A DNA stretch of 22,009 nt from a virus. The position numbers and the translations under genes are program-made. The notes below the pieces were generated by a model. That model made no database searches, had not been told where the DNA came from, and saw only the letters and a list, made by a program, of their open reading frames with translations. Positions 11,357 to 22,009 of the stretch are shown here, in pieces. The stretch covers positions 1-22,009 of IMG/VR virus record IMGVR_UViG_3300043446_001084. One strand, given 5' to 3'. Every line of letters starts with the position of its first letter. The first letter of the stretch is position 1.

Positions 11357-12073
11357 GTGGCGATCCAAGTCCTCAACGGCTCGTCGAGCCGGAATGTTTA
11401 TCTGGATGCGGTTCGCGGGATTCATCCTGATTGCTCAGGCGTTCATCGCTTTGCCTTTAATAACGATGTCGGCATCACTTACGAAACAATCTGGGACAAT
11501 GGCGGCGGGGAATATACCTATCCGGCCTCAGCGGTCGTTCTGACGGCAGTTTCCACTTCTGCGGCTGATACGATGGCTGTCCTGATTACGGGTCTCGACG
11601 GCTCTTATATGCCGATTTCTGAGCAGATCACGCTTGCGGGTCTAACTCCGGTCACGACGACTAAATCCTTCCTGCGGATTAATGATATCCAACTTGTCAC
11701 GGGCAACAATGCCGGAGAGATCAGTTTCAGCAATGGCGGAACGACCTACGGTCATATCTCGGCAACCTATGGTGTTCAGCAATCCTCGGTCTATACGGTT
11801 CCGGCAGGATATACGTTCTATATGACCCAGATCGATGTGACTTCAGGAACGATCAATGCGAACAAATATGGGTTTGGTCGCGCAGTTTTAAGATTCTTCA
11901 ATGGTCCGACATTGAGGTTTTTTGAAACGACATTCGTCACATCGCAGTTGAAATATGAGCCGCCAGTTCCGTTCAAAATTCCTGAAAAGACGGATTTCGA
12001 GTTTCAATGCAAATCCTTGTCATCGACAAATGAATTTACGGTCTATGTAAACGGACTTCTGGTGAAGGAATAA
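11357..12073 (+). CDS. Virion structural protein (probable), marine-phage type
   Basis: The start is the GTG at 11357, with AAAGGA 10 bases before it, 6 bases after the previous stop. The 238-residue protein is mostly predicted beta structure (AIQVLNGSSSRNVYLDAVRG, ITYETIWDNGGGEYTYP, VTTTKSFLRINDIQLVTG). It ends with a beta-rich segment containing FEFQCKSLSSTNEFTVYVNG. Similar proteins in aquatic phages are annotated as structural or virion-associated, and they could be decoration or tail-associated proteins. No enzymatic motif was seen. It lies between fibre genes and lysis genes, which fits a late gene. The role is inferred only from composition and place. Confidence 0.5.
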   Translation: MAIQVLNGSSSRNVYLDAVRGIHPDCSGVHRFAFNNDVGITYETIWDNGGGEYTYPASAVVLTAVSTSAADTMAVLITGLDGSYMPISEQITLAGLTPVTTTKSFLRINDIQLVTGNNAGEISFSNGGTTYGHISATYGVQQSSVYTVPAGYTFYMTQIDVTSGTINANKYGFGRAVLRFFNGPTLRFFETTFVTSQLKYEPPVPFKIPEKTDFEFQCKSLSSTNEFTVYVNGLLVKE

Positions 12074-12077
12074 TGCG

Positions 12078-12542
12078 ATGGACCCTTTCACCATATTGGC
12101 GGGAGCAACGGCGCTCTATAACGGGATAAAATCTGCGGTCGATGCGGGTTCGGATGTTATGGAGACTGCCGAGAAACTCGGCGGATTGTTCTCCAAAGTC
12201 GCTCAGATCACACAGATTGCGGCGACTCCTCGGAAGCGCAAACTATTCGAATCTCAGGCTGATTTCGAGGCTGAGGCGGTCAAGCTATTTGCGGCGAAGA
12301 AAAAAGCGCATCAGATGGCGCTCGAAGTTAAGAACTTATTCATCTCGCGCTATGGTCCGGCGGCTTGGGATAATATTCAAAGGGAAGTGATTGAGATGCG
12401 GAAACAGGCGGCTCGGCAAGCGGCGATTGCCTTGAAGGAAAAAGAAGAAGCACAGAAAGACTTGCTGATGATCGGCGGGATTGTCCTTTTCATCATCGTC
12501 GGGATCGGAGTCGTCGGTCTGGTTTTAACGCTTCGAGGCTGA
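12078..12542 (+). CDS. Helical protein with C-terminal membrane anchor, unknown function
   Basis: This 154-residue protein starts at an ATG with AAGGA 8 bases upstream. The first part (MDPFTILAGATALYNGIKSAVDAG) is mildly hydrophobic. The middle (about residues 45-125) is a charged, probably coiled-coil region with ATPRKRKLFESQADFEAEAV and many Lys, Glu and Ala residues. The end is a clear membrane segment (LLMIGGIVLFIIVGIGVVGLVLTL, about residues 129-152). Similar proteins occur in marine phages beside the lipoprotein and 2-TM genes that follow here. A spanin is possible from the setting, but inner-membrane spanins usually carry the membrane segment at the N-terminus, so I do not call it one. 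Confidence 0.6.
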   Translation: MDPFTILAGATALYNGIKSAVDAGSDVMETAEKLGGLFSKVAQITQIAATPRKRKLFESQADFEAEAVKLFAAKKKAHQMALEVKNLFISRYGPAAWDNIQREVIEMRKQAARQAAIALKEKEEAQKDLLMIGGIVLFIIVGIGVVGLVLTLRG

Positions 12543-12543
12543 G

Positions 12544-12750
12544 ATGCGGATTCTGGTCGTTTCGATTATTTCGATTATGCTGATCGGATGCGAAGATCGA
12601 TATCGTTATGCTTGCCAAGACCCCGCAAACTGGGAGAATGAGGAATGTCGGGAGCCAAAATGCCGAGCGACAGGGACGTGCTCAAACGAGTTGATAAAGA
12701 GATTGCAAAAGAATCCATGCGGCATCATCACAACCGAAGGAAGCGAATAA
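12544..12750 (+). CDS. Small lipoprotein, outer spanin candidate
   Basis: This 68-residue protein has a short signal sequence ending in the lipobox LIGC, with the lipidated cysteine at residue 16, followed by EDRYRYACQDPANWENEEC. Five more cysteines make the mature part cysteine-rich. GAGG 5 bases upstream supports the ATG. Its last 106 bases overlap the next gene in another frame. Small lipoproteins inside lysis cassettes are often outer-membrane spanins, and near-identical pairs of this lipoprotein with a 2-TM protein are known to me from marine phages as unknowns. The mature part is not proline-rich as many outer spanins are, so the spanin call is tentative. Confidence 0.65.
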   Translation: MRILVVSIISIMLIGCEDRYRYACQDPANWENEECREPKCRATGTCSNELIKRLQKNPCGIITTEGSE

Positions 12751-12995
12751 ACGAGAATGATCTGCACGCTCTACTTCAGTTTATCATTGGGATTAGCCTC
12801 TGTATCACACTCACTGGAACCGTCTTTGCGGTCCTATATTCGCTCATATTCGTCACTCAGCCTGTCGATGTTCAAGCGCCGAATGACCGCGAATTCTTCA
12901 AACTTATAGCACCGATCGCAACTTTCCTGACCGGAACGCTTTCAGGTATTATGCTTGCCTCAAAAGGTCACAAAAATCACGGAGACAACGACTGA
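12645..12995 (+). CDS. Two-TM membrane protein of unknown function
   Basis: This 116-residue protein has a basic N-terminus (RHHHNRRKR near residue 26-34) and a first membrane segment FIIGISLCITLTGTVFAVLY at about residues 46-65. A short loop follows with VTQPVDVQAPNDREFFKL, then a second membrane segment IAPIATFLTGTLSGIMLA. The tail is charged and ends HGDND. It overlaps the lipoprotein gene by 106 bases in a different frame. GGAG lies 8 bases before ATG 12645; an alternative ATG at 12660 also has GGGAG in range. The stop overlaps the holin start as TGATG. The family recurs in marine phages next to the same lipoprotein; a role in lysis control is plausible but unproven. Confidence 0.65.
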   Translation: MSGAKMPSDRDVLKRVDKEIAKESMRHHHNRRKRINENDLHALLQFIIGISLCITLTGTVFAVLYSLIFVTQPVDVQAPNDREFFKLIAPIATFLTGTLSGIMLASKGHKNHGDND

Positions 12996-13525
12996 TGGAT
13001 ATTCTTAAAACATTCGGACCATTGATTGGATCGGTGGCTCCTACGATTGCGACTGCTCTCGGGGGACCAGTGGCAGGAATGGCAGTAAAGGCACTCAGCG
13101 GCGCTTTATTCGGGCATGATGAAGCAAGCAAAGACGATATTATGACGGCTCTCGCCAATCCGACAGGCGATCAGCTTGCGGCTTTGAAAAAGATTGATTC
13201 CGATTTTGCGGTTCAGATGAAGGCTCTCGATATCGATCTGGAGCGCATTGCGGCAGGAGACCGAGCATCTGCGCGGGATATGCAGAAGGAAACGAAAGAC
13301 TGGATTCCTCGCGCCTTGGCTGTCTCGGTGACGATCGGCTTCTTTGCGATCCTGCTCTATATGCTTGTTTATGGTCTGCCGACTACGGGTAACGAGGCGC
13401 TTCTTCTCCTGCTCGGAGCATTGCAAACAGCATGGGGCGGAATCATTGCCTTCTATTTTGGCTCGTCATCTGGTAGCCAACAAAAAGATAAGATGATCTA
13501 TAATTCCACGCCGAATAAGGACTGA
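12995..13525 (+). CDS. Holin of the GTA 3-TM family
   Basis: This 176-residue protein begins at a TGATG junction. The first part (LIGSVAPTIATALGGPVAGMAVKAL) is followed by a conserved charged middle: ALANPTGDQLAALKKIDSDF, then MKALDIDLERIAAGDRASARDMQ. Two C-terminal membrane segments follow, at about residues 106-128 (RALAVSVTIGFFAILLYMLV) and 133-152 (ALLLLLGALQTAWGGIIAFY). This layout and the GDRASAR motif match the holin family first described for gene-transfer-agent release, common in alphaproteobacterial phages. Holins form inner-membrane lesions that let the endolysin reach peptidoglycan. The endolysin gene follows immediately, which supports the call. Confidence 0.85.
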   Translation: MDILKTFGPLIGSVAPTIATALGGPVAGMAVKALSGALFGHDEASKDDIMTALANPTGDQLAALKKIDSDFAVQMKALDIDLERIAAGDRASARDMQKETKDWIPRALAVSVTIGFFAILLYMLVYGLPTTGNEALLLLLGALQTAWGGIIAFYFGSSSGSQQKDKMIYNSTPNKD

Positions 13526-13529
13526 GCAA

Positions 13530-14135
13530 ATGAACGGATTCAAAGGAACTGCTCTTAAAATGACGCTTCAGGATATCGGCGTGATTGCGGATGCCATAGG
13601 AGTTGAATTAGCGGCTCTCAGGGCGGTTCTTGCGGTCGAGACGGGTGGAAGTGGCTTCGACAAATCAGGCCGTCCTAAGGCGCTTTTTGAGCGGCATTAT
13701 TTCTATAAATTCATCAAAGACGATCCGGTCCTTCTCGACCAAGCGGCGGCGGCAGGATTGGCATATCCTAAATGGGGCGAACGACCTTATCCGAAGGGGT
13801 CGGATGCGGTCTATGCGGAGATTGAGGCGGCATACGAAATGCGGCCTGAAGCGGCTTTAATGGCGACTAGTTGGGGCCTCGGGCAGATCATGGGGTCAAA
13901 TTGGAAATTGACCGGATGCGACTCGGTCGAAAACATGGTCGCGGAAGCTATGGAATCGGAAGCGAATCAGCTTCGACACATGGCAGGATTTATCAAATCT
14001 GCGGGTTTGCTCGATAAGCTGAAAGCGAAGGATTGGGCGGGATTCGCTAAAGGATATAACGGTCCCGCCTATGCCAAGAACTCCTACGATACGAAACTCG
14101 CAGGAGCATATTCAAACTTCGTCAATCTCGCTTAG
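13530..14135 (+). CDS. Endolysin, N-acetylmuramidase family (DUF3380 type)
   Basis: This 201-residue enzyme is predicted to cleave the glycan strands of peptidoglycan. The family signature VLAVETGGSGF places the likely catalytic glutamate at residue 37, followed by RPKALFERHYFYKF and, later, MATSWGLGQIMGSNW (about residues 111-125), then FAKGYNGPAYAKNSYDTKLA near the C-terminus. There is no signal peptide, so export through the holin lesion is expected. AAGGA lies about 9 bases before the ATG; an internal ATG at residue 11 would also keep the whole domain. The 3' end overlaps the convergent minus-strand gene by 14 bases, so no terminator separates late and early operons. Confidence 0.9.
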   Translation: MNGFKGTALKMTLQDIGVIADAIGVELAALRAVLAVETGGSGFDKSGRPKALFERHYFYKFIKDDPVLLDQAAAAGLAYPKWGERPYPKGSDAVYAEIEAAYEMRPEAALMATSWGLGQIMGSNWKLTGCDSVENMVAEAMESEANQLRHMAGFIKSAGLLDKLKAKDWAGFAKGYNGPAYAKNSYDTKLAGAYSNFVNLA

Positions 14136-14511
14136 ACCAGTCGATATCTTCGAAGATTTTCTCATAGATCGCTTCTTGCCTTTGAGGAGTATCATCGAGG
14201 ATTTTTACGATCTCCGTAATCATCTCTTTTGAAACTGGAGCGTCATATCCATCGTAATCGGTCGCTTCAGCTTCATGGATTTGATATATTTCATAATCCT
14301 TAACGAATAGCCGACCGAAATCATCTGATTCAGCCTCGTAATTGATAATCGCGGTTCCGTTTCCGTAATACGGCTTTCCTTCAACAACGAACTCTAATTC
14401 CTCGAATTCAAACTGAATCTCTCCCGAATAATATTTATTCGCATATTTCTTGTAGAACATTTCTAGGTTCCTTCTTACGTTTATTGCATATTGTTTCCAG
14501 AAATTAGTCAC
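14122..14511 (-). CDS. Unknown acidic protein at the end of the minus-strand operon
   Basis: This 129-residue protein starts in an ATGA overlap with the upstream gene. It is acidic and aromatic: FEFEELEFVVEGKPYYGNG near residues 34-52, then YEAESDDFGRLFVKDYEIYQ, and a C-terminal helix ending FEDIDWSKRD. The strand-turn-strand pattern with GKPYYGNGTAIINYE looks like a small beta sheet. I do not recognise the family. It is the last gene of the early minus-strand transcript and meets the endolysin tail to tail with a 14-base overlap, so transcripts of the two operons would be antisense at their ends. Confidence 0.6.
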   Translation of the reverse strand: MTNFWKQYAINVRRNLEMFYKKYANKYYSGEIQFEFEELEFVVEGKPYYGNGTAIINYEAESDDFGRLFVKDYEIYQIHEAEATDYDGYDAPVSKEMITEIVKILDDTPQRQEAIYEKIFEDIDWSKRD

Positions 14512-14804
14512 TCTTTCTCCTTCAGCGCGGCACGGGCTTTTTTGGCTTTTGCTCTACGAGATTGGCTTATATTTGCTTTTGCACGTTCATCAATAATTGT
14601 ATGAATGTGGTCATGTAGTGCAATCAATGTATCATGCCGAAGATTATCCATTAAAGCAGGGTAATTAAAACATTGCTCCCGCAACCGCTCAATCTCGTCT
14701 GCTCCGCTATCCATCAAAGCGCACTGGCAATATTCAACAACAGGATTGCATCCTTTGTTTTCAGGACACTGATATTTTCGTAGCGATTCAACGATGTCCA
14801 TCAC
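14508..14804 (-). CDS. Small Cys/His-containing phage protein, unknown function
   Basis: This 98-residue protein starts with ATGATG inside an ATGA overlap with the gene upstream, so either methionine may be used. The N-terminal half has cysteines at about residues 13, 19, 26, 28 and 45 (YQCPENKGC, EYCQCALMDSGADEIERLRE). This resembles small phage early proteins beginning with D-I-V-E-S-L-R, whose function is unknown. The middle has HDHIHTIIDE and the C-terminus is a highly basic helix (SQSRRAKAKKARAALKEKE) that could bind nucleic acid. The cysteines might bind metal, but no standard zinc-finger spacing is evident. Confidence 0.55.
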   Translation of the reverse strand: MMDIVESLRKYQCPENKGCNPVVEYCQCALMDSGADEIERLREQCFNYPALMDNLRHDTLIALHDHIHTIIDERAKANISQSRRAKAKKARAALKEKE

Positions 14805-15151
14805 TTCTTTTCCTGCATCGCATCAGCCATCTTCATCTTCACAGCTTCAAGATTGAATTGTGTGACGGCAGGCATTTTCTCGGTCGGTTCTGGATTTGAG
14901 AATTGCGCGGCAAAGGCAAGATATGAAGCGGCATCAACAAACGAATCTTCATGGCGCTTATTGGCAGAGATGCGGCTAAGTTTTAGAGCCGTCATAATGA
15001 TGCAGAGATCATAAACTGAGATCGGCTTTTCGAGGATTGCGGTGGCTATGTAACAAGCCTTCTCAAAATTTTCTAATGCAGGACCGTATTCAGTCCCTCT
15101 CTTTTCGATAGTAGTTGCTGATTGAAAAAGGATGTCTTTTGCGTGTGTCAT
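14801..15151 (-). CDS. DUF6378-type phage protein
   Basis: This 116-residue protein carries the pattern EKRGTEYGPALENFEKACYI, then DLCIIMTALKLSRISANKRH and EDSFVDAASYLAFAAQF. These are the hallmarks of a widespread phage helical domain (DUF6378), often seen near nucleotide-metabolism and recombination genes. The arrangement of Glu, Asp and Lys in successive helices is reminiscent of all-alpha NTP pyrophosphatases, but the catalytic ExxE motifs were not identified, so no reaction is claimed. Its start lies 62 bases inside the upstream gene, and its stop overlaps the downstream start as ATGA. Confidence 0.6.
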   Translation of the reverse strand: MTHAKDILFQSATTIEKRGTEYGPALENFEKACYIATAILEKPISVYDLCIIMTALKLSRISANKRHEDSFVDAASYLAFAAQFSNPEPTEKMPAVTQFNLEAVKMKMADAMQEKK

Positions 15152-15485
15152 TTTGTTTCTCGCTTTCGAGTTTGCGTTTTTGATCCAAGGCTGATCTTCC
15201 TGCGGGTGGTTTCCCTAAAAGAAGAACATTCGGATCGTCGGTTTTTTCCTGAATAATTCTAGTCTTTTGAAATATAAATTGTTGAAGATTTTCCTGCCTT
15301 TCTGTTAGTGGGACCAAATTCTCCGATAACCGATAATTCCTGATCCAGTTCCTCACGGTTGTCGGGGCAATACCAAGGTTTTCAGCGACTTTCTGCGCCG
15401 ATCGAATTCTCTTATATTCTTCAATGGCGGTCAGTCTTGCTTGATCCGCGTGTTTTGCCTTCATCGCGTAGAACGAGGCTCCCAT
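15090..15485 (-). CDS. Helix-turn-helix protein, transposase-like HTH
   Basis: This protein of up to 131 residues has an HTH near its N-terminus: AIEEYKRIRSAQKVAENLGI-PTTVRNWIRNYRLS, about residues 20-54, of the kind seen in helix-turn-helix proteins that read short repeats and in transposase N-termini. The rest (residues 60-131) is basic and of low similarity to anything I recognise. The ATG at 15485 has GGAAG upstream; an ATG at 15464 keeps the whole HTH and would shorten the overlap with the HNH gene. Both ends overlap neighbours by 44-65 bases, longer than elsewhere in this operon. A transcription factor or a DNA-targeting partner of the HNH protein are both possible. Confidence 0.55.
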   Translation of the reverse strand: MGASFYAMKAKHADQARLTAIEEYKRIRSAQKVAENLGIAPTTVRNWIRNYRLSENLVPLTERQENLQQFIFQKTRIIQEKTDDPNVLLLGKPPAGRSALDQKRKLESEKQNDTRKRHPFSISNYYRKERD

Positions 15486-15798
15486 TTAGCTTCCGTTTCC
15501 ACTTGGATGATTTACCACAAGGAAGCGGCTTTTTCGATAGTTTTGTATGATTGTGATAAGCGGCTTGTCGTTTCGCTTTAGCAAGACGGCTGACATCTGC
15601 CTTTGTCTTGTCTCGGTGGCAGGATTGGTGAGCCAGATCAAGGTTTTCGCCAGAGTCTTCTCCGCCAAGGGCGAGCGGGATGATATGTTCGATTTCCCAT
15701 TTCTCTTGCGAATGAATCTTTTGACCACAGATATGACACTTGCCATTTCGCGCATTGAATATCTCCACTCTTTCTTTTTTTGATATTGATCGTCTCAT
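15421..15798 (-). CDS. HNH endonuclease
   Basis: From the ATG at 15798 the product is 125 residues; this start shares TAATG with the upstream stop and is preferred to a GTG at 15822. It has the complete HNH pattern: a zinc-type CHIC at residues 21-24, WEIEHIIPLALGG with the EH pair at 37-38, ENLDLAHQSCH with Asn 52 and CH at 60-61, then KTKAD. Free-standing HNH proteins of this size in phages are homing-type or nicking nucleases, and some assist DNA packaging when next to terminase genes. Here the neighbours are early genes, so a packaging role is less likely unless the genome is circularly arranged. The basic C-terminal 50 residues may aid DNA binding. Confidence 0.8.
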   Translation of the reverse strand: MRRSISKKERVEIFNARNGKCHICGQKIHSQEKWEIEHIIPLALGGEDSGENLDLAHQSCHRDKTKADVSRLAKAKRQAAYHNHTKLSKKPLPCGKSSKWKRKLNGSLVLRDEGKTRGSSKTDRH

Positions 15799-16574
15799 TA
15801 AACGCCACACATTCCTTCGCACTCATTGATGAACATATTTAATTGTCCCATTTCTTCAATGGTTCTAAAATCTACTTCTTCAAGAGGTTTTAAGGAACGG
15901 TGCATATATTGTTCACCCCGGAATCCAGATTGATTTCTAATTGATCGATCAACTTCAACGGCATCCTTAAATTCATCTGGTGTTAGTGATCTCCATTGAT
16001 CATTTGAATGAAATGGACATCCAATGCAGGAAGATTTAGGAGCAGACCATCCTTTTGATTCCATCCATTTAATACAATCATTTCTGCTCATGCGTTTTTC
16101 AATTAAGGGCCATCTATTTTTAATATATTGAACCCGTGAAGGCTTCATTCTCATAATTTCATCTGTTGAAATTCCGATCCAAACTTCTGCTCCTGATTTT
16201 GGTCTTTTACCATTCATCAATTCAACAATCTTTTTTTGAATCGGACGTAATTTATATTCTGCGGTGCATTGTCTTCTACCCATTGCTTCTTTGCCATTTG
16301 GCATCTTCATAAACCACGGGACAGCCGCAAATCTTTGACCAGTTGTGTTTGTCATAGAAATAATATCAGACCGAAGATTTCCAGCAGAGACAATATAAAT
16401 CGGAAAAGGCAAAGCTGATTTTAGTTTTTCAAGATGATCATAAACCGCTTTTGGCTCCCATTGAGTATCTGAAAAAATCGCACAATCTGGAATTTCGCCT
16501 AATTCACCAGATGCCGCCATAAGAGCAAGAGTAGTTGATTGAACACCAGCACCAAGTGATAAAACTTTAATCAT
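15798..16574 (-). CDS. PP-loop ATP pyrophosphatase / PAPS reductase-like protein
   Basis: The ATG at 16574 (258 residues) sits in an ATGA overlap with the upstream gene and directly precedes IKVLSLGAGVQSTTLALMA, the PP-loop that binds ATP. Further signatures are FSDTQWEP (residues 35-42), the PAPS-reductase-like RRQCTAEYKLRPIQKKI, WIGISTDE, SSCIGCPFHSNDQW and a C-terminal ECEGMCGV. Proteins of this phage family usually carry the same cysteine pairs, and they belong to the adenine nucleotide alpha-hydrolase superfamily, which activates a substrate by adenylation. The substrate is unknown. Sulfur transfer to a nucleobase or RNA, or another adenylation, is possible but not shown. A purely assimilatory PAPS reductase role is unlikely in a phage early operon. 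Confidence 0.75.
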   Translation of the reverse strand: MIKVLSLGAGVQSTTLALMAASGELGEIPDCAIFSDTQWEPKAVYDHLEKLKSALPFPIYIVSAGNLRSDIISMTNTTGQRFAAVPWFMKMPNGKEAMGRRQCTAEYKLRPIQKKIVELMNGKRPKSGAEVWIGISTDEIMRMKPSRVQYIKNRWPLIEKRMSRNDCIKWMESKGWSAPKSSCIGCPFHSNDQWRSLTPDEFKDAVEVDRSIRNQSGFRGEQYMHRSLKPLEEVDFRTIEEMGQLNMFINECEGMCGV

Positions 16575-16933
16575 AATTTCATCTCTGCTCGTTTGGTTGC
16601 CTCTAGGCTTTGCCATTCGCTAAAACGCATTCGAATATATTCTAACTGAACCTTAAGCATCGCGGCTTTGGCTCTCGCCTTAACCATCTGGTCGATATAC
16701 TCAACCCATGACTCGGAAGCCTTAACATTCATTTCGGCCTTTGAAACTGGCATATCGCCGAGTTCAAGCATCTTGCGGGATAGGACCGCACTCTTGCTTT
16801 CTTCCATCAGCGATGCGGCTGAATCGGCATCAACCCATTTCTTAGCGATTATCCGATATTGTTCGCTCAATGGTATTTCATTGTCGTTTATTTTGCTCAT
16901 CACCATTGCTCTTTTTGATTGAAAACCATTCAT
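16571..16933 (-). CDS. Helical early protein, unknown, next to ERF gene
   Basis: This protein of up to 120 residues has two candidate starts. The ATG at 16933 forms an ATGA overlap with the 28-aa ORF upstream. The ATG at 16900 has an AAGAG-like ribosome site 8 bases upstream and gives 109 residues. The product is helical and charged (IPLSEQYRIIAKKWVDADSA, SKSAVLSRKMLELGDMPVSK, MVKARAKAAMLKVQLEYIRM). Similar helical proteins lie beside single-strand annealing genes in phages and may act with them, but I recognise no catalytic motif. Position immediately after ERF and the micropeptide suggests a recombination accessory role (inference). Confidence 0.6.
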   Translation of the reverse strand: MNGFQSKRAMVMSKINDNEIPLSEQYRIIAKKWVDADSAASLMEESKSAVLSRKMLELGDMPVSKAEMNVKASESWVEYIDQMVKARAKAAMLKVQLEYIRMRFSEWQSLEATKRAEMKL

Positions 16934-17016
16934 AGTTTTTTAGCCATTAAATAGATCGAGAGCGCAATAATCGCTAAAACGCTCCCGATCGAGATTGAGA
17001 AATAATAAAGAACCAT
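16930..17016 (-). CDS. 28-aa single-pass membrane micropeptide
   Basis: An ORF of 28 codons fills the apparent gap between the ERF gene and the next gene. Its ATG at 17016-17014 shares TGATG with the ERF stop, and its TGA at 16932-16930 shares ATGA with the next start. The product begins MVLYYFSISIGSVLAIIALS and ends IYLMAKKL, a single hydrophobic span with a lysine pair at the C-terminus. Both junctions match the coupling style of the rest of this operon, which is the main reason to believe it is translated. No family is recognised. It could modulate a host membrane protein or simply be a fortuitous frame. Confidence 0.55.
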   Translation of the reverse strand: MVLYYFSISIGSVLAIIALSIYLMAKKL

Positions 17017-17645
17017 CAAACTACTTCGTCGTAACGCTTATCCCATTCTTCGGAGAGGGCATCGCGCCATGCTTGGGGCCAAACAGAGACTTCGGTCATC
17101 AGAAGGCGTTTTAATTCCTTCAAATCAATCTTCGACTCACAATCTCGAATCATTTGAACTACATCTGTCCATCGCTCAGGTTGCTCTTTTTTCAATGAAT
17201 TACTGGTGCGAACAGGACGGCTATTATCGCGTGGAAACGATGAATCCTTATTGCGATCGATCGATCCTTCACCGTCGTCATCAATCGGGGGCAAAAGAAA
17301 TAATGCCATCAATGAATAGCGACAGCCATAGGTGATCGCCGAAGCGGTTCCTTGGGCATCCTTTTTTGATACAGGAATTTCCAATCGGCTACTCATCGAC
17401 TGACCTGAGATATGCGAGATCGTCGTTATAATCTCGATACAACCGGAATCAGTAAATCGGGAAGGTGCTTGTGTGACGACCAGATCATTCTCTTGCAATG
17501 CGGGTCGAAGCGCATCGATGACAGCCTCAAGCGAGGCGTATCGGTTCTTGAAGTGGGGATTGGTCGAGTCGCGCTTTACGCCAGAAATCTTGCCTTGGAC
17601 TTTGTGCAGTGCAACAATCAGCTTATTGTTTTGAGATTCGGTCAT
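17016..17645 (-). CDS. erf: ERF-family single-strand annealing protein
   Basis: The ATG at 17645 is preferred to the GTG at 17657 because GTGAG lies about 7 bases upstream of it. The 209-residue product has the ERF core at about residues 8-125: LHKVQGKISGVKRDSTNPHF, YASLEAVIDALRPALQENDLVV, then GCIEIITTISHISGQ and GTASAITYGCRYSLMALFLL. ERF proteins anneal complementary DNA strands during phage recombination and replication. A low-complexity linker (about residues 126-155) is followed by a helical C-terminal region of unknown role. The gene overlaps its upstream neighbour by 23 bases. A RusA resolvase on the other side of the control region would complete a recombination pathway. Confidence 0.88.
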   Translation of the reverse strand: MTESQNNKLIVALHKVQGKISGVKRDSTNPHFKNRYASLEAVIDALRPALQENDLVVTQAPSRFTDSGCIEIITTISHISGQSMSSRLEIPVSKKDAQGTASAITYGCRYSLMALFLLPPIDDDGEGSIDRNKDSSFPRDNSRPVRTSNSLKKEQPERWTDVVQMIRDCESKIDLKELKRLLMTEVSVWPQAWRDALSEEWDKRYDEVV

Positions 17646-17808
17646 TGTGTGTCTCACTTTCTTGTGGATAACTCATTTCAATTTTGCTATCTATTTGAAT
17701 TGATTGATGAATTATTAAGTTCCAGTTTTCATCGGAAGGATCGCGAGAATAGTTCGCAATTAATTCTAGCAGGTCGTGAACCATATTCGCCAGTTCAAAA
17801 TAACTCAT
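17623..17808 (-). CDS. Small leader protein of the minus-strand early operon
   Basis: The ATG at 17808 is chosen because AAAGGAG lies 7 bases upstream; the longer frame upstream of it crosses the control region and has no support. The 61-residue product (MSYFELANMVHDLLELIANY, DPSDENWNLIIHQSIQIDSK) is acidic and helical, and ends ETHNDRISKQ. No family is recognised. It is the first gene of the minus-strand early operon. Its coding sequence contains a perfect DnaA-box-like TTATCCACA about 18 bases before the ERF start. Confidence 0.6.
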   Translation of the reverse strand: MSYFELANMVHDLLELIANYSRDPSDENWNLIIHQSIQIDSKIEMSYPQESETHNDRISKQ

Positions 17809-17827
17809 TTTCAGGCTCCTTTCAGCC

Positions 17828-17856
17828 TTTACAACTGACGAATCAGAATTTAATTT
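17828..17856 (+). promoter_or_regulatory. Putative promoter for the rightward early operon
   Basis: TTTACA at 17828-17833 (five of six matches to the sigma-70 -35 consensus) is followed after exactly 17 bases by TAATTT at 17851-17856 (a weak -10, three of six matches). Transcription would begin near 17863, giving a leader of about 26 bases before the start codon at 17889, with AAAGGAG at 17873-17879. Confidence 0.4.
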
Positions 17857-17875
17857 GTTTGAACGGAACTGTAAA
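17847..17875 (-). promoter_or_regulatory. Putative promoter for the leftward early operon
   Basis: On the minus strand TTTACA (plus positions 17875-17870) is followed after exactly 17 bases by TAAATT (17852-17847), four of six matches to a -10. Transcription would start near 17840, with AAAGGAG at 17822-17816 before the start codon at 17808. The -10 element overlaps that of the rightward promoter. Confidence 0.42.
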
Positions 17876-17888
17876 GGAGATAAACGCA

Positions 17889-18242
17889 ATGAGTTTCGTG
17901 GAAGCACTCGACAAAATTATGAAAGTCCAAGAGCGGGATTTATTCCGCACAAATGCCAAGATCACATCGATCGAGGCGGCTCAATCTATATTCCCTAATC
18001 TGCGTGAATTGCATATCGAAATTCTAAGCTATGCAATAAATCAGGGATACAACGGGTTTACAGATATCGATCTCAACCGTCACTTCAAAACAGAAATGTC
18101 CACTTATCGCGCTCGAAGAAGCGAACTGGAGAAGGTTGGATTGATCGTCGATAGCGGTCGGCGAGTGAAATATCCAGAACGCGGGAATAACCGCAGTCAT
18201 ACAGTATTTGTCGCAAAGGAGTTCAAACTTGAAAACGGTTAA
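17889..18242 (+). CDS. Winged-helix DNA-binding protein, early regulator candidate
   Basis: The ATG at 17889 has AAAGGAG 9 bases upstream; the much longer open frame before it runs antisense through the ERF region and is rejected. The 117-residue product has an N-terminal helical part (MSFVEALDKIMKVQERDLFR), then a winged-helix domain. ELHIEILSYAINQGYNGFTD (about residues 40-59) leads to STYRARRSELEKVGLIVDSG (71-90), which reads as recognition helix and first wing strand. SHTVFVAKEF forms the last wing strand. The spacing resembles MarR-like folds. As the first gene of the rightward operon, next to the divergent promoters, it is a natural candidate to bind the inverted repeat there (inference). 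Confidence 0.65.
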   Translation: MSFVEALDKIMKVQERDLFRTNAKITSIEAAQSIFPNLRELHIEILSYAINQGYNGFTDIDLNRHFKTEMSTYRARRSELEKVGLIVDSGRRVKYPERGNNRSHTVFVAKEFKLENG

Positions 18243-18456
18243 GGAATTTTTAACGCAATTAGGTGGACCGAAGAAATTGGGTCAGACACTTGGTCGATCA
18301 CCGAGCAATATCACTTTCTGGGGAAATCAAGGTTCGATCCCGATCGATCACTGGCCTCGATTGATTGAGTTGGCGCATGAGGCACAGATCGAATGCACAG
18401 CCGAGATCATGCTCAGAATGTGCTTGAACAGCCCGAAGAAAGGTGAGACCATCTGA
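18229..18456 (+). CDS. Cro/CI-like HTH protein, carph-isopro-type
   Basis: The start is taken as TTG at 18229, because a perfect AAAGGAG lies at 18215-18221, 7 bases before it; another TTG at 18208 lacks such a site. The 75-residue product has one compact HTH: VKEFLTQLGGPKKLGQTLGR, SPSNITFWGNQGSIPIDHWP, RLIEL. The pattern of a glycine-rich turn, S-x-x-x-I-x-x-W and IP-x-x-HWP is that of the carph-isopro family found in alphaproteobacterial genomes and phages, thought to be Cro-like repressors. It overlaps the upstream gene by 14 bases, so both are made from one transcript. A terminator follows it. Confidence 0.7.
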   Translation: MKTVKEFLTQLGGPKKLGQTLGRSPSNITFWGNQGSIPIDHWPRLIELAHEAQIECTAEIMLRMCLNSPKKGETI

Positions 18457-18478
18457 ATTCTAGGGTTCCTCCCCCACT

Positions 18479-18511
18479 GGTCGGATCGACAACGGTCCGG
18501 CCTCTTTTTTT
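18479..18511 (+). terminator. Strong intrinsic terminator before rusA
   Basis: GGTCGGATCG at 18479-18488 pairs fully with CGGTCCGGCC at 18493-18502 (10 bp, two G-U pairs) around a four-base loop ACAA. TCTTTTTTT follows at 18503-18511. It ends only 1 base before the AAGGAG of the next gene. On the minus strand no T-run follows, so it works in the rightward direction only. Confidence 0.85.
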
Positions 18512-18522
18512 AAGGAGCCGAG

Positions 18523-18894
18523 ATGCGATTTCAGTTTGAGTTTCCGCCGAGCACGAATAATCTTTGGATGCCTGTCAAAGGTAAAGGATTAGTCAAAACA
18601 AAAGAATATCGAGCATGGCAGGACGCGAATGCTTGGATTATCAGGCAACAAATCGGGCTTGTGAAGATCGAAGGACCGTTTGAAGCATATTTTGTTTTCG
18701 AACGACCTGATCGACGCAAACGTGATCTCGATAATCTTCTAAAAGCGAGTTTAGACTGTATCACCAATGCTAGAGTAGTTCATGATGACTACCTATGCCA
18801 AAAGCTAACCGCAGAATGGATCAATCGTTATGGAAGAACTGTCTATTGTGAAATCATCGCAAAATCTGAGAACGGAACTGAAGGATCGATATAA
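18523..18894 (+). CDS. rusA: RusA-type Holliday junction resolvase
   Basis: This 123-residue enzyme cuts Holliday junctions during phage recombination and replication. AAGGAG lies 6 bases before the ATG. The N-terminal FEFPPSTNNLWMPVKGKGL and KTKEYRAWQ are standard RusA features. Acidic residues D68, D70 and D89 with K74 (RRKRDLDNLLKASLD, VVHDD) keep exactly the spacing of the catalytic D70, D72, D91 and K76 of E. coli RusA, offset by two. The protein therefore appears active. Placement after a terminator suggests its expression depends on read-through or a separate signal. The next gene overlaps by 65 bases. Confidence 0.92.
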   Translation: MRFQFEFPPSTNNLWMPVKGKGLVKTKEYRAWQDANAWIIRQQIGLVKIEGPFEAYFVFERPDRRKRDLDNLLKASLDCITNARVVHDDYLCQKLTAEWINRYGRTVYCEIIAKSENGTEGSI

Positions 18895-19429
18895 AGCGGC
18901 AAGGGAGCGGATCGATCGAGGAGCGATCGAGTTACGATACAAGAAAATCCTTGAAGAAAAAGAAAAGCAGTTTGAAAAAGAGTTGCAGGAAAAAATTCAA
19001 CGCGAACGGGAAAAGAAGCGGCTTGAAGAAGAAGTAATCAGAAAATTCAAAATCCATCGAGATTTTATGCTTTTGAAAAGCCTATCTGGTGAGGATGGAG
19101 AAGTGCCACCGAAGAAACTTGAAGAAGAAATCGAGTTCTGGAAACAGGCGCAGAAATACATTCGCGGTCAATCGATACCGGATGCGATCAAGCGGATCGT
19201 CGCTGAGGTATGCCTGAAGCACAATCAGTTCTTGCTCGATATCGAATCCGATCGGCGAACCAAAGAAGCGGTCGCGGCTCGGCAGGAGTTGATGTATCGG
19301 CTCAGGACAGAAACCACTTGGAGCCTTCCAAGGATCGGGCGGTTCCTCGGCAATCGGGATCACACCACAATTCTCCACGGTTTCCACAAGTTTAAGAAAC
19401 AACTGGAATCCGGCGAGGTTTCGCTATAA
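18830..19429 (+). CDS. DnaA domain IV (DNA-binding) protein without ATPase
   Basis: This protein of up to 199 residues has an N-terminal, very charged coiled-coil region (about residues 10-110, many Glu, Lys and Arg) and a C-terminal DnaA domain IV. PDAIKRIVAEVCLKHNQFLL and DRRTKEAVAARQELMYRLRT precede the signature SLPRIGRFLGNRDHTTILHG (about residues 165-184). The signature binds DnaA boxes in bacterial replication initiators. No Walker motifs are present, so it cannot act as an AAA+ initiator itself. It could target phage origin sites, or compete with host DnaA. The ATG at 18830 lacks a clear ribosome site; a GTG at 18848 is an alternative. It overlaps RusA by 65 bases. Confidence 0.8.
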   Translation: MEELSIVKSSQNLRTELKDRYKAARERIDRGAIELRYKKILEEKEKQFEKELQEKIQREREKKRLEEEVIRKFKIHRDFMLLKSLSGEDGEVPPKKLEEEIEFWKQAQKYIRGQSIPDAIKRIVAEVCLKHNQFLLDIESDRRTKEAVAARQELMYRLRTETTWSLPRIGRFLGNRDHTTILHGFHKFKKQLESGEVSL

Positions 19430-19431
19430 GG

Positions 19432-19471
19432 TAAAAAAATAGGCCGACAGAGCGGCAAACTCTATCGGCCT
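19432..19471 (-). terminator. Possible leftward terminator (hairpin 1 of the leader array)
   Basis: Read on the minus strand, AGGCCGA..TCGGCCT (with inner AGAG/CTCT and one mismatch) is followed directly by ATTTTTTTA. This has the form of an intrinsic terminator for leftward RNA. No leftward gene longer than the 28-aa ORF at 20697 lies upstream of it. On the plus strand the same hairpin has no T-run after it. Confidence 0.5.
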
Positions 19472-19546
19472 GAATACCTACGAGTGCGGCGTAGGTCGAG
19501 AACAGGATTATACTGTTCGCCGATCTCCGCTTCAATAGAGGAGATC
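19441..19546 (+). ncRNA. Structured leader: four consecutive hairpins before the initiator gene
   Basis: Four hairpins lie in 106 bases with no coding frame of note. H1: AGGCCGA/TCGGCCT plus AGAG/CTCT with one mismatch, loop at 19453-19459. H2: ACCTACG/CGTAGGT (19476-19482 with 19490-19496), 7-base loop. H3: GAACAG/CTGTTC (19500-19505 with 19513-19518), 7-base loop. H4: GATCTCC/GGAGATC (19522-19528 with 19540-19546), 11-base loop. The GAGGAG ribosome site of the initiator gene (19538-19543, 8 bases before the ATG) lies partly in the 3' arm of H4, so folding could hide it. I do not recognise a known riboswitch, tRNA or sRNA family. Confidence 0.65.
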
Positions 19547-19551
19547 AAATT

Positions 19552-20274
19552 ATGTCACTTCGCATTAAAAACTGGTCGAAGTTTCAACATTTCAAAGATC
19601 GTAAACCGCCTTGGATCAAGTTGTATCGGGATATTCTCGATGACTTGGATTGGCACGATCTCGACCCATTAGCGGCAAAATGCCTTGTTATGATCTGGGT
19701 GATTGCTTCCGAGGATGATGGAAGAATTCCTGATCTTCGGAAATTAGCATTCCGATTGCGTATTCCAGAAAATCAAATGAAATCAATAGTTTCAAAGCTA
19801 TCTCATTGGTTGGAACAAGATGATATCAACGTGATATCAGAACGATATCAAGATGATCTACCAGAGACAGAGAAAGAGAAAGAGAAAGAGAGAGAGAAAG
19901 AGACAGAGGTAGAGAAAGAGAAAGAGGCAAAATATTTGTCGCGTGGGACGCGACTTCCAGAGAATTGGAATCCTCGACCTGAAGATGGATTGAATGAAAT
20001 TGAATTGGCAAAGTTTCGAGACTACTGGAGATCGGTAGCAGGACAGAAGGGAGTGAAACGGGATTGGGATGCTACATGGCGCAACTGGCTCCGCAATTCG
20101 AAGCAATGGGTTGGTGGCTCAAACGGAAAGGATACTGCGCCGGAAACTTTTCGCATTGGGCATCCGAAGGGGCTCGTCAAGTTCGAGCCTGAGCGACCAA
20201 AATTGAGCGACGAACAACTTCGAGAAAGAGCCGAGTTTGTTAAGTCGGCACTCAAGAATTTTGGTATTTCTTAA
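19552..20274 (+). CDS. Replication initiator / replisome organiser-like protein
   Basis: This 240-residue protein begins SLRIKNWSKFQHFKDRKPPWIK, then LYRDILDDLDWHDL and VMIWVIASEDDGRIPDLRKL (about residues 46-65). That is the usual N-terminal winged-helix pattern of phage replication proteins analogous to lambda O or replisome organisers. A Glu/Lys linker (about residues 104-126) separates this from a C-terminal part with FRDYWRSVAGQKGVKRDWDA and TWRNWLR, common to DnaT- and organiser-type proteins that recruit the helicase. Within the gene, three GATATCA repeats and a polypurine tract suggest a replication origin. No helicase or loader gene is visible, so the host DnaB is probably recruited. 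Confidence 0.75.
   Translation: MSLRIKNWSKFQHFKDRKPPWIKLYRDILDDLDWHDLDPLAAKCLVMIWVIASEDDGRIPDLRKLAFRLRIPENQMKSIVSKLSHWLEQDDINVISERYQDDLPETEKEKEKEREKETEVEKEKEAKYLSRGTRLPENWNPRPEDGLNEIELAKFRDYWRSVAGQKGVKRDWDATWRNWLRNSKQWVGGSNGKDTAPETFRIGHPKGLVKFEPERPKLSDEQLRERAEFVKSALKNFGIS
19821..19861 (+). repeat. Phased GATATCA iterons inside the initiator gene
   Basis: GATATCA occurs at 19822-19828, 19833-19839 and 19844-19850, and a degenerate GATCTAC at 19855-19861; the period is exactly 11 bp. The first two copies extend to the 8-bp palindrome TGATATCA. The three exact copies are read in different codon frames (gat atc a, g ata tca, cga tat ca), so the repetition is at the DNA level. Confidence 0.7.
19863..19928 (+). 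repeat. Polypurine GA-rich tract encoding the Glu/Lys linker
   Basis: About 66 bases are almost entirely A and G (repeats of GAGAAA and GAGAGA with very few C or T). They encode the Glu-Lys linker of the initiator, and they begin 1-2 bases after the last iteron-like copy. The tract could ease strand opening or form an unusual DNA structure, or be only a coding repeat prone to slippage. Confidence 0.7.
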
Positions 20275-20302
20275 AAATCGATTAAAGCAAAGGAATCACA
20301 CA

Positions 20303-20614
20303 ATGTGGAAATCAAGACCAGAAGCATCGACGAGCAAACAGATGGCATACACGAACACAGGTTCGCTTTCAAAGAACTTGAAAAAAGAACAAGAGAAGCA
20401 TCCAGATATGCGCGGTCCTGCGACAATTATCTGTCCTCATTGCAATGCAACAAATGAATATTGGCTGAGTGGATGGTTCAAAATCGGTCGCGATTCGGCT
20501 CGTTTCATCAGCCTTGCCTTCCGACCGAAGGAAGAAAAGCCTGAGTCGAACAGCGGTCAGCAACTGGCAGACAAACGGTTTATGCGGCGCGATGACGACG
20601 ACATAGATTTCTAA
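20303..20614 (+). CDS. Unknown protein with CxxC and SSB-like acidic tail
   Basis: The ATG at 20303 is chosen over the longer frame from 20237 because AAAGGAA lies about 10 bases upstream and the extension overlaps the initiator. The 103-residue product has a lysine-rich N-terminus and one ICPHCNATNEYWLSGWFKIG segment with a CxxC (about residues 44-47). The middle is RDSARFISLAFRPK, and the tail ends RRDDDDIDF. The last residues resemble the acidic C-terminal tip of single-stranded DNA-binding proteins (DDDIPF), which binds replication partners. The CxxC is a single pair, so metal binding would need a partner or dimer. Not recognised as a known SSB. Located in the replication operon, a role there is likely (inference). 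Confidence 0.6.
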   Translation: MWKSRPEASTSKQMAYTNTGSLSKNLKKEQEKHPDMRGPATIICPHCNATNEYWLSGWFKIGRDSARFISLAFRPKEEKPESNSGQQLADKRFMRRDDDDIDF

Positions 20615-20697
20615 AAGATAATCCAGTAGGATAATAAAACCGCCATCAGGAAACTGAATCCGACGAACTCGATAGTTGCTTCTAAAAGTTTGAACAT
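20611..20697 (-). CDS. 28-aa membrane micropeptide on the opposite strand
   Basis: A minus-strand ORF runs from ATG at 20697-20695 to TAG at 20613-20611. The product begins MFKLLEATIEFVGFSFLMAV and ends LLSYWIIF, one hydrophobic span after a short charged start. A perfect AAAGGAG lies 7 bases upstream of the ATG. It overlaps the end of the rightward gene by 4 bases. The perfect ribosome-binding site at ideal spacing argues for translation. No promoter was recognised for it. The 139-base gap between 20614 and 20754 is otherwise only explained by regulatory sequence. Confidence 0.6.
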   Translation of the reverse strand: MFKLLEATIEFVGFSFLMAVLLSYWIIF

Positions 20698-20753
20698 GGT
20701 CGATCTCCTTTGATGTGAGCAGACTAATTCAAAGAAGTTAAAAAAGGGTTACG

Positions 20754-21401
20754 ATGCAGATCACGGTAAAATCAAATATCGACATTCTGTCTCGGCAGAT
20801 TCGATCCTATCGCAATCAAATTCCTCAAGCGACTGCGGCGGCATTGACCAAGACAGCCTTCGATATTCGGCAGGAGATCGTTCAGAACACATGGCCTCGA
20901 TCGGTTACGGTTCGCAATTCAAGATTCATGAACGCGGCTCTGCGGGTAAAGAACGCGACAAAGAGGATGCTGACTGCCTCGATATTCGACAGTCTGAGCC
21001 GGAACTATCTGGCTCGGCTTGAATCATCAGGCACCAAGACTCCGCTCGGAAACAATATCGCTATTCCTGCTCGGGATGTTGAAGGATTGATTCGTGGCGG
21101 CGGTGGAGCGGTCAAAAAAGCCTATAAACCGCGTAATCTGCTGAATAAGAACCGTTTCTTTAGAACGACTCTCAAATCCGGCATGGATGCGATCGTTGAA
21201 CGGCCGGCAGGGAAAGAGGCGGGTATTCGCAAGACAAACAGGCTCAAGAGAGGGCCGTTGAAGGTTTGGTATCTCTTGGAGCCAAAGGCACACATTCCGA
21301 AACTGTTCCCATTCTATGAGGCGGCAAGACGGGTTGTCGATCGTCGCTTTGCTTTGAATTTTCGCAATGCCTTCCGCCGAGCAGTGATGACAAGACGATG
21401 A
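20754..21401 (+). CDS. Minor tail protein Z-like / tail completion protein
   Basis: This 215-residue basic protein begins MQITVKSNIDILSRQIRSYR, followed by NQIPQATAAALTKTAFDIRQ, and has many Arg and Lys throughout (KKAYKPRNLLNKNRFFRTTL, ending FRRAVMTRR). This matches the pattern of the prophage minor tail protein Z family (lambda gpZ type), which helps finish the tail or its connection to the head. In lambda Z lies just before U, V and G, but here it lies after the replication genes and away from the other tail genes. AAGGG is about 6 bases upstream. The stop overlaps the next start as ATGA. Family call by pattern only. Confidence 0.6.
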   Translation: MQITVKSNIDILSRQIRSYRNQIPQATAAALTKTAFDIRQEIVQNTWPRSVTVRNSRFMNAALRVKNATKRMLTASIFDSLSRNYLARLESSGTKTPLGNNIAIPARDVEGLIRGGGGAVKKAYKPRNLLNKNRFFRTTLKSGMDAIVERPAGKEAGIRKTNRLKRGPLKVWYLLEPKAHIPKLFPFYEAARRVVDRRFALNFRNAFRRAVMTRR

Positions 21402-21958
21402 TCCACGAACAAGAACGGGCAAAATATAAGAGAATGTGGGATCAGCCGGAATATCGCGGCTTCTCTCCTGCCGAGCAGATCGTCGGCATTGCTCATTCAA
21501 TGTTCAAGAAATACGGAAGCATTGGAACGCTGATCGACTTCGGCTCAGGAACAGGCAGAGCATCATGGCGCTTCCATGATCTAGGGCATGAAGTCACTAT
21601 GGTCGACTTCGCGCCGAATGCGGTCGAGGTCGAAGGGATAGACTTCATCGACTCATGCCTCTGGCATCTTCCGTCCTATCTCAAAGCACAGAATGGATTC
21701 TGCTCGGATGTGATGGAGCATATCCCGACCGAGATGGTCAGCCAGACGCTCGACTGTATCCACCATGCAACGACAGACCTGATGCTGTTTCAAATTGCTT
21801 TAACGCCTGACTCCTGCGGTCAGTTGATTGGAGAGACGCTCCATCTCACGCTATGGACAGAGAGCCAGTGGCGGAAGGAACTCAACACCAGATGGACAGA
21901 ACTGCACACTGAAACAAACGGCTACAATCTCCTGTATCTAGGGAGATCAAACCATTGA
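21398..21958 (+). CDS. Class I SAM-dependent methyltransferase
   Basis: This 186-residue protein starts in an ATGA overlap with the Z-like gene. Motif I is LIDFGSGTGRAS (residues 45-56), which binds S-adenosylmethionine; acidic D70 follows in VTMVDFAPNAVEVEG. Later comes FCSDVMEHIPTEMVSQTLDC, with the D-V-M-E-H-I-P pattern of the methyltransferase motif IV region. No DNA methyltransferase target motif (such as DPPY or NPPY) is seen, so the substrate is unknown: a small molecule, RNA or protein are all possible. The sequence ends GRSNH 51 bases from the window edge. It is complete at both ends. Confidence 0.8.
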   Translation: MIHEQERAKYKRMWDQPEYRGFSPAEQIVGIAHSMFKKYGSIGTLIDFGSGTGRASWRFHDLGHEVTMVDFAPNAVEVEGIDFIDSCLWHLPSYLKAQNGFCSDVMEHIPTEMVSQTLDCIHHATTDLMLFQIALTPDSCGQLIGETLHLTLWTESQWRKELNTRWTELHTETNGYNLLYLGRSNH

Positions 21959-22009
21959 GACCCCTATCGCGGGTCCTTCCACGGGTTTTGTATGCGGGTA
22001 TCGCGCGAC
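21959..22009. other. Terminal stretch with short repeats, no gene seen
   Basis: The last 51 bases hold no recognisable ORF. GACCC/GGGTC (21959-21963 with 21971-21975) form a 5-bp hairpin with no T-run. TATCGCG is repeated at 21965-21971 and 21999-22005. The stretch is richer in G and C than its surroundings. It may be the start of a packaging site or a terminase region, but nothing here proves it. Confidence 0.3.

Follow-up and report, generated by a model that had tools for sequence, protein, structure and literature searches.

What is the role of four strong hairpins that stand directly in front of a phage replication gene? The window analysed here, by which we mean the whole stretch of 22,009 bases, is a virus record classed as linear and so possibly a fragment, and the closest matches to its 975-aa tail protein come from Roseobacter phages (46-50% identity among the best six records). 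Its replication block lies on the plus strand and consists, in order, of a RusA-like gene, a DnaA domain IV gene, the hairpin region and the replication gene. The gene upstream of the hairpins (18830..19429, plus strand; Bac_DnaA_C, Pfam 3.1e-16) encodes a product of 199 aa that has, of DnaA, the DNA-binding domain IV alone, placed at its C-terminus, and it is found just 5' of the initiator in the group of leaders designated A below. The replication (initiator) gene, the presumed target of the element described here, occupies 19552..20274 on the plus strand and matches phrog_26426, a replication protein (1.3e-17), as well as phrog_3992, a primosomal protein (1.8e-12), and phrog_1408, a replication initiation protein (3.1e-08). 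A query of named phages with 18830-20300 matched five records; the matching part (query 723-1090) covers the beginning of the replication gene and leaves out the hairpins. Within the early gene block there is also a sense-strand terminator-like site at 18479-18502, with 10 pairs followed by TCTTTTTTTA, between the ORFs at 18208-18456 and 18523-18894, which suggests control of termination in that block.

The first-pass annotation had placed four nearly perfect hairpins at 19441-19546, and all four stems are indeed found there or within a few bases. On the sense strand H1 (19441-19471) has 12 stem positions, with a single C.A mismatch, and a 7-base loop; H2 (19476-19496) has 7 bp and a 7-base loop; H3 (19500..19518, a palindrome assigned to neither strand) has 6 bp around a 7-base loop, so that the loops of the first three are equal in size, as claimed. 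H4 (19522..19546, plus strand) has 7 bp, GATCTCC/GGAGATC, in which CTCC pairs with the GGAG of the ribosome site (19540-19543). The stretch, with H1 starting 11 nt past the upstream stop, falls between the upstream ORF (18830-19429) and the ATG at 19552, and no gene on the sense strand explains it. Folding of 19430-19570 gives -49.1 kcal/mol, compared with -31.0 (sd 3.6) in 200 dinucleotide shuffles, none of which is as low (z = -5.04), and H2 is not formed in this sense-strand minimum free energy fold. An Rfam scan of the window returned no family at its cut-off, in line with the view that the layout belongs to no named RNA family.

Read on the opposite strand, the same bases look like a small gene. 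In a scan of 19350-19650 a single promoter-like site and a single terminator-like site came up; both lie on the minus strand, in the right order, and they enclose H2. The promoter is of the sigma-70 type, TTGAAG-17-TATAAT (19535-19507, minus strand), with its -35 box (19530..19535) in the H4 loop and its -10 box (19507..19512) in the H3 loop. The terminator is H1 itself, which on the minus strand forms 13 pairs (19441..19471), the most among the 14 terminator-like sites in 12000-22009, and is followed by ATTTTTTTAC, the T7 tract lying at 19433..19439. Taking the start from the usual spacing to the -10 box, at about 19500, we predict an antisense RNA of ∼68 nt (19433..19500, minus strand) whose predicted fold is two clean stem-loops (-31.7 kcal/mol, z = -5.75). 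H2 (19476..19496, minus strand) is the only hairpin wholly within the transcript ahead of the terminator, and is the likely recognition loop of both the antisense RNA and its target. As far as sequence can tell, the locus thus has the features of an antisense-RNA gene, namely its own promoter opposite the initiator mRNA strand, a predicted short stem-loop RNA that ends in an intrinsic terminator, and complementarity by position to the initiator mRNA leader (minus strand of 19433-19500, 5' of the ATG at 19552). On this reading the hairpins are not an array of four like units: H1 is a terminator, H2 a stem-loop of the RNA, and H3 and H4 carry the promoter boxes. The array is most likely best read as a minus-strand small-RNA gene and not as a sense-strand switch, and we put at about 80% the joint probability that it is a cis-encoded antisense RNA gene and that its RNA represses the initiator. 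The general lesson is that a hairpin array seen on one strand may turn out to supply the promoter and terminator for a gene encoded by its complement.

Comparison with relatives shows which parts of this layout are kept. Related genes were located in 80 viral loci by protein search, and searches with H4, H1 and H2 patterns added further contigs; the module is present in 13 records including the window, amounting to 11 distinct leaders, with copies of one leader counted once (L002, L084 and L143; L082 and L083; L088, L118 and L119). They fall into group A (the window, L007, L008 and L026) and group A' (L006, L085, L086, L087, L089, L278 and L280). Left out were L090, which has H1 but lacks the module and has a different downstream gene, and L144 and L178, which passed a loose antisense scan but are unlike the others in place or promoter. 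The replication proteins behind these leaders differ strongly in their N-terminal halves, and hence the module accompanies more than one initiator type. In an alignment from H2 to the start codon (A4), 8/55 columns are invariant, these being a CG after H2 together with ATA and CAA, which are the TAT and TTG of the minus-strand promoter; both triplets and the 17-bp spacer are invariant in all 11 leaders. In nine leaders the -35 box starts 16-18 nt 5' of the start codon, and T-rich tails follow H1 on the minus side of every leader. The palindromes around the boxes are kept far less often, the six pairs of H3 in 2/11 leaders and the seven of H4 in 4/11, as judged from MAFFT columns in which gap-shifted pairs could be missed; other stems are possible in this part of L007 and L008. 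Elsewhere in the family the promoter reads TTGCCC at -35, and some -10 boxes are weak. The H2 loop has 7 bases, or 6 in two leaders, and every one of its columns varies over the 11; among the four closest leaders it varies in 4/7 columns, and the stem changes in 1/14, the change being a gap. At the level of sequence we can thus point to a promoter, a terminator, two stem-loops, the strand, and a plan that is kept in the 11 leaders.

A pattern search for an A'-type H2 followed by GGGCAA found 12 records, eight of which are family members (six known and two new), and the remaining four have no -10 box at 17 bp. Both new members carry the terminator, T-tract and -10 box, none of which the pattern demanded; in one of the family, L280, the -35 box is a second GGGCAA, whereas the pattern had matched the first. 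By eye we also noted, at L022:3760-3910 on the minus strand, TTGCAC-17-TATTAC, a hairpin with a 7-base loop, a GC-rich terminator and a T-rich tail, a possible independent antisense module of unrelated sequence, which failed the promoter rule and is not counted.

The imperfections of H1 bear on the choice of strand. Over the 11 leaders its stem has 13 mismatches and no G-U on the sense strand (one cell is gapped), whereas on the minus strand 12 of the 13 become G-U and a single mismatch is left. Ten of these mismatches share one column and so are not ten events; a second column is mismatched in three leaders, two of which become G-U on the minus strand. Mismatches that can be G-U on one strand are a sign of RNA, and the tail after H1 has the same polarity, with 5-7 T in 9 on the minus side and 1-3 in 9 on the plus side in 11/11 leaders. 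Compensatory changes, the check that had been proposed for these stems, were found for H1 and H2, and the two palindromes around the promoter boxes failed it. The sense alignment (A3) has 18 pairs with 94.9% of cells paired, and both sides change in five pairs (15 cells); 0/500 shuffles reach this cell count or the covariation score, 12/500 reach the pair count, and no slid version does. The minus-strand alignment (A6) has 19 pairs, 96.1% paired, and likewise five changed on both sides. All five pairs are in H1 and H2; the three in H2 are split 7 to 4 between the groups and may therefore represent a single change of the stem.

These data bear on two other ways of reading the hairpins. In the first, they would form a sense-strand cis-acting RNA element that sets initiator translation without any antisense RNA, H4 being opened by a ligand, a protein or the ribosome. 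For the window, and for the three relatives closest to it, H4 is predicted to hide the GGAG; a start-codon hairpin of some kind beats nearly all shuffles (≤6/200 as low) in 8/11 leaders, and the covariation of H1 and H2 would be expected of a sense RNA too. The poor keeping of H3 and H4 as drawn beside promoter bases that never change, the H1 mismatches that become G-U solely on the minus strand, and a T-tract confined to the minus side make this explanation improbable. Hence the idea of a cis-acting switch for initiator dosage pointed in the right direction as to dosage control, but the small-RNA gene on the minus strand reads better than a switch on the sense strand; similarly, the placing of the ribosome site within a hairpin carries over in part, as a start-region hairpin, and not as H4 itself. 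In the second, the hairpins would belong to the origin as structured DNA, being extruded or serving as a DNA binding site for a phage protein. Although the palindromes adjoin the replication gene and the gene for DnaA domain IV, the one-strand G-U pattern in H1 speaks of RNA and the H3 and H4 palindromes are not kept, and we give this possibility scarcely any weight. We found no evidence for the earlier suggestions of a structured part of the origin or of an RNA bound by a phage protein.

A simpler explanation would be that H1 is an intergenic terminator and no more, next to promoter-like bases that arose by chance, with no small RNA gene at all. The antisense promoter has 10/12 consensus bases, and over 10 kb matches of this quality are no commoner than expected (14 against 14.9). 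H1-like stems, moreover, occur in many unrelated bacterial genomes: a search for H1 gave 27 matches, several of them good hairpins with A- and T-rich flanks of the terminator style, none of which we recognised by eye, without a family search, as lying 5' of a replication gene. Hairpins of this kind (GGCC, AGAGCG..AACTC, GGCC) were seen at L090:2823-2878, L096, L098, L100 and other bacterial loci, terminator-like and in unrelated phage or bacterial contexts, and their loop motif is perhaps one that terminators favour. Three results make a lone terminator very unlikely as the whole account. The promoter triplets and their spacing are invariant and the palindromes that surround them are not; H2, which lies between promoter and terminator, covaries; and the placement of the promoter is rare. 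For the last point we asked for TTG, 17 bp and TAT (4 of 6) at the same antisense position relative to the ORF start at 2,091 distinct ATG starts (ORFs ≥100 aa) from the viral loci, and found it at 10, of which nine are distinct leaders of the module family and one, L175, is the single case outside it. Two members, L026 and L280, are missing from the nine, we think through an ORF cut by a contig end and a longer distance. Over 200 sources, a covariance model built from H1 and H2 scored the known members alone above 58 bits, with L090 next at 29.8 bits. A scan of 94 clusters for promoter-plus-terminator modules found 10 on the sense and 10 on the antisense strand, compared with 0-2 in each of six mononucleotide shuffles, the sense modules being chiefly other leader classes of the replication gene plus a few scattered ones. 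Plasmids gave no match to the window leader, and the leader of L086 gave one 32-base match within traA.

Leftward transcription might instead serve replication itself, as a primer or as transcriptional activation of a nearby origin, and not repress the initiator. The position is that of lambda pO-oop: a priming role was once supposed for its RNA, and its promoter continues to be connected with replication (PMC12197685, PMC3349717). Against this, a strong terminator closes the RNA after ∼68 nt, and a variable loop on a kept stem is better suited to recognition than to priming. The search for an origin near the leader found, as notable direct repeats, the codons of the initiator's low-complexity linker, and no iteron-like origin adjoining; matches to the DnaA box, with one mismatch allowed, were fewer than in shuffles. 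We therefore consider a priming or activating role highly doubtful. Within the replication gene itself, four overlapping GA-rich 28-nt repeats with a 12-nt spacing (19863-19926) encode a Glu-Lys-rich linker; they may act as an origin in the manner of lambda O or be linker and no more.

If the locus is an antisense RNA gene, as we favour, its promoter would fire leftward across the initiator ribosome site, from a -35 box in the H4 loop and a -10 box in the H3 loop, and the transcript, starting near 19500, would carry H2 in complementary form, a stem-loop whose loop has 7 bases, before stopping at the H1 hairpin and U-tract, just past the stop codon of the upstream gene. Such an RNA would be fully complementary to the 5' part of the leader (19433-19500), and we infer that it is made, pairs with the leader and represses the gene; because of this complementarity, more copies of the phage genome would give more antisense RNA and so less initiator. 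Two routes to repression were weighed and set aside. Modelled over all 11 leaders, antisense pairing hardly alters access to the ribosome site or start codon, since in group A the ribosome site, and in group A' the start codon, stays mostly masked whether or not the antisense-covered part is blocked, and no ribosome-site switch is seen; attenuation is at odds with the lack of a sense-strand terminator near the window leader (19350-19650). As folding backs neither, the step we favour is contact through the H2 loop, leading to a duplex and RNase III decay of the leader, possibly assisted by colliding transcription. Duplex decay is the route described for OOP acting on cII (PMC12197685). Separately, in the window and in the three relatives closest to it, the H4 sense hairpin would lower translation by hiding the ribosome site. 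Kissing between the H1 and H2 loops, judged by eye, fits one relative and not the others.

The variation of the H2 loop allows a further and much more tentative proposal, one that we think probably wrong as it stands: that the 7-base loop is a type tag, by which a resident or earlier phage silences the initiator of a newcomer with the same loop, making the locus a plasmid-style copy-number and incompatibility locus. Were this true, it would amount to an RNA-based replication immunity, separate from that of the repressor.

Most relatives of the replication gene have leaders of other classes. In 29/80 leaders scanned we found a sense-strand RNA of ∼110 nt that appears to contain two pseudoknots and has a terminator with T7-T9 shortly 5' of the start codon. 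In an alignment of this class (A5: L049:4886-4997 with L012, L019, L021, L023, L027, L034, L041, L050, L055, L056, L060 and L067) the loop CUUGGCGG pairs with CCGCCAAC, and a second knotted helix has all six pairs changed on both sides; the structure, named by hand, has 34 pairs over 13 leaders and 96.1% paired cells; both sides change in 20 of the pairs, a count that 0/500 shuffles reach. None of the loci scanned gave an Rfam match at the cut-off, and a relaxed search of L049 gave none that was plausible; the class has the look of a structured RNA not described before, possibly an attenuator. At L011:4900-4975, directly 5' of the replication gene, a leader of another class resembles int-alpA RNA (RF02996; 36.0 bits, just over the cut-off of 35.8), and similar leaders were recognised by eye in L010, L013-L018, L020 and others. 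This replication initiator gene thus seems often to stand behind some structured RNA, of at least three designs.

Antisense control of initiators is textbook knowledge for plasmids, and to our knowledge lambda OOP, known mainly for its effect on cII, is the one well-known phage RNA in such a position. OOP is a short self-terminating RNA (77 nt) whose promoter, at the beginning of the initiator gene O, drives leftward transcription, antisense to the rightward mRNA (PMC3349717, PMC5869508). The likeness lies in a leftward promoter at the start of the initiator gene and a self-terminating RNA, here predicted at ∼68 nt. However, OOP extends over the final 55 nt of cII, which it lowers, whereas the phage RNA predicted here covers the initiator leader alone and ends at 19433, short of the end of the upstream ORF at 19429; the Rfam scan shows no sequence relation to OOP. 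In the repABC plasmids of alphaproteobacteria, according to PMC3155836, a ctRNA encoded between the upstream gene and repC lowers RepC. Our locus would likewise place a small antisense RNA between the initiator gene and its upstream neighbour, but pairing in repABC makes the repC leader form an intrinsic terminator, and no sense terminator was seen around the window leader. The RNAI of I-complex plasmids is described in PMC10286972 as a small antisense RNA 5' of the initiator that sets copy number and incompatibility. It resembles the RNA predicted here in being a small antisense RNA upstream of an initiator. Control by RNAI in I-complex and IncI-alpha plasmids uses a UUGGCG loop and a CGCCAA partner in the leader; the window leader is without this pair, and no leader peptide was established for it, whereas 29/80 scanned leaders, of another class in front of the same gene family, have the pair. 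The best match in a relaxed Rfam search was to ctRNA_pGA1 (RF00236) at 19496-19429 on the minus strand, over the full model length, but it reached 18.4 bits (E 0.14) where the cut-off is 45; of two other leaders, one gave the same match at E 0.93 and the other none, and membership was rejected.

A search of the literature by titles and abstracts, with subscription papers largely outside its reach, returned no antisense RNA dedicated to a phage initiator leader except in work on lambda OOP, and the table of phage small RNAs in a 2025 review (PMC12197685) names OOP, sar, c4 and others, none stated there to act on an initiator leader. Because there is no overlap with the upstream gene as in OOP, no leader terminator as in repABC and a score far below the cut-off for ctRNA_pGA1, we file the predicted RNA as a member of none of these families. 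By analogy, its mode of action would resemble that of the repABC and I-complex antisense RNAs and its position that of lambda OOP, and such a leader-confined antisense RNA in a phage family would show plasmid-like replication control in phages and predicts loop-specific incompatibility between them.
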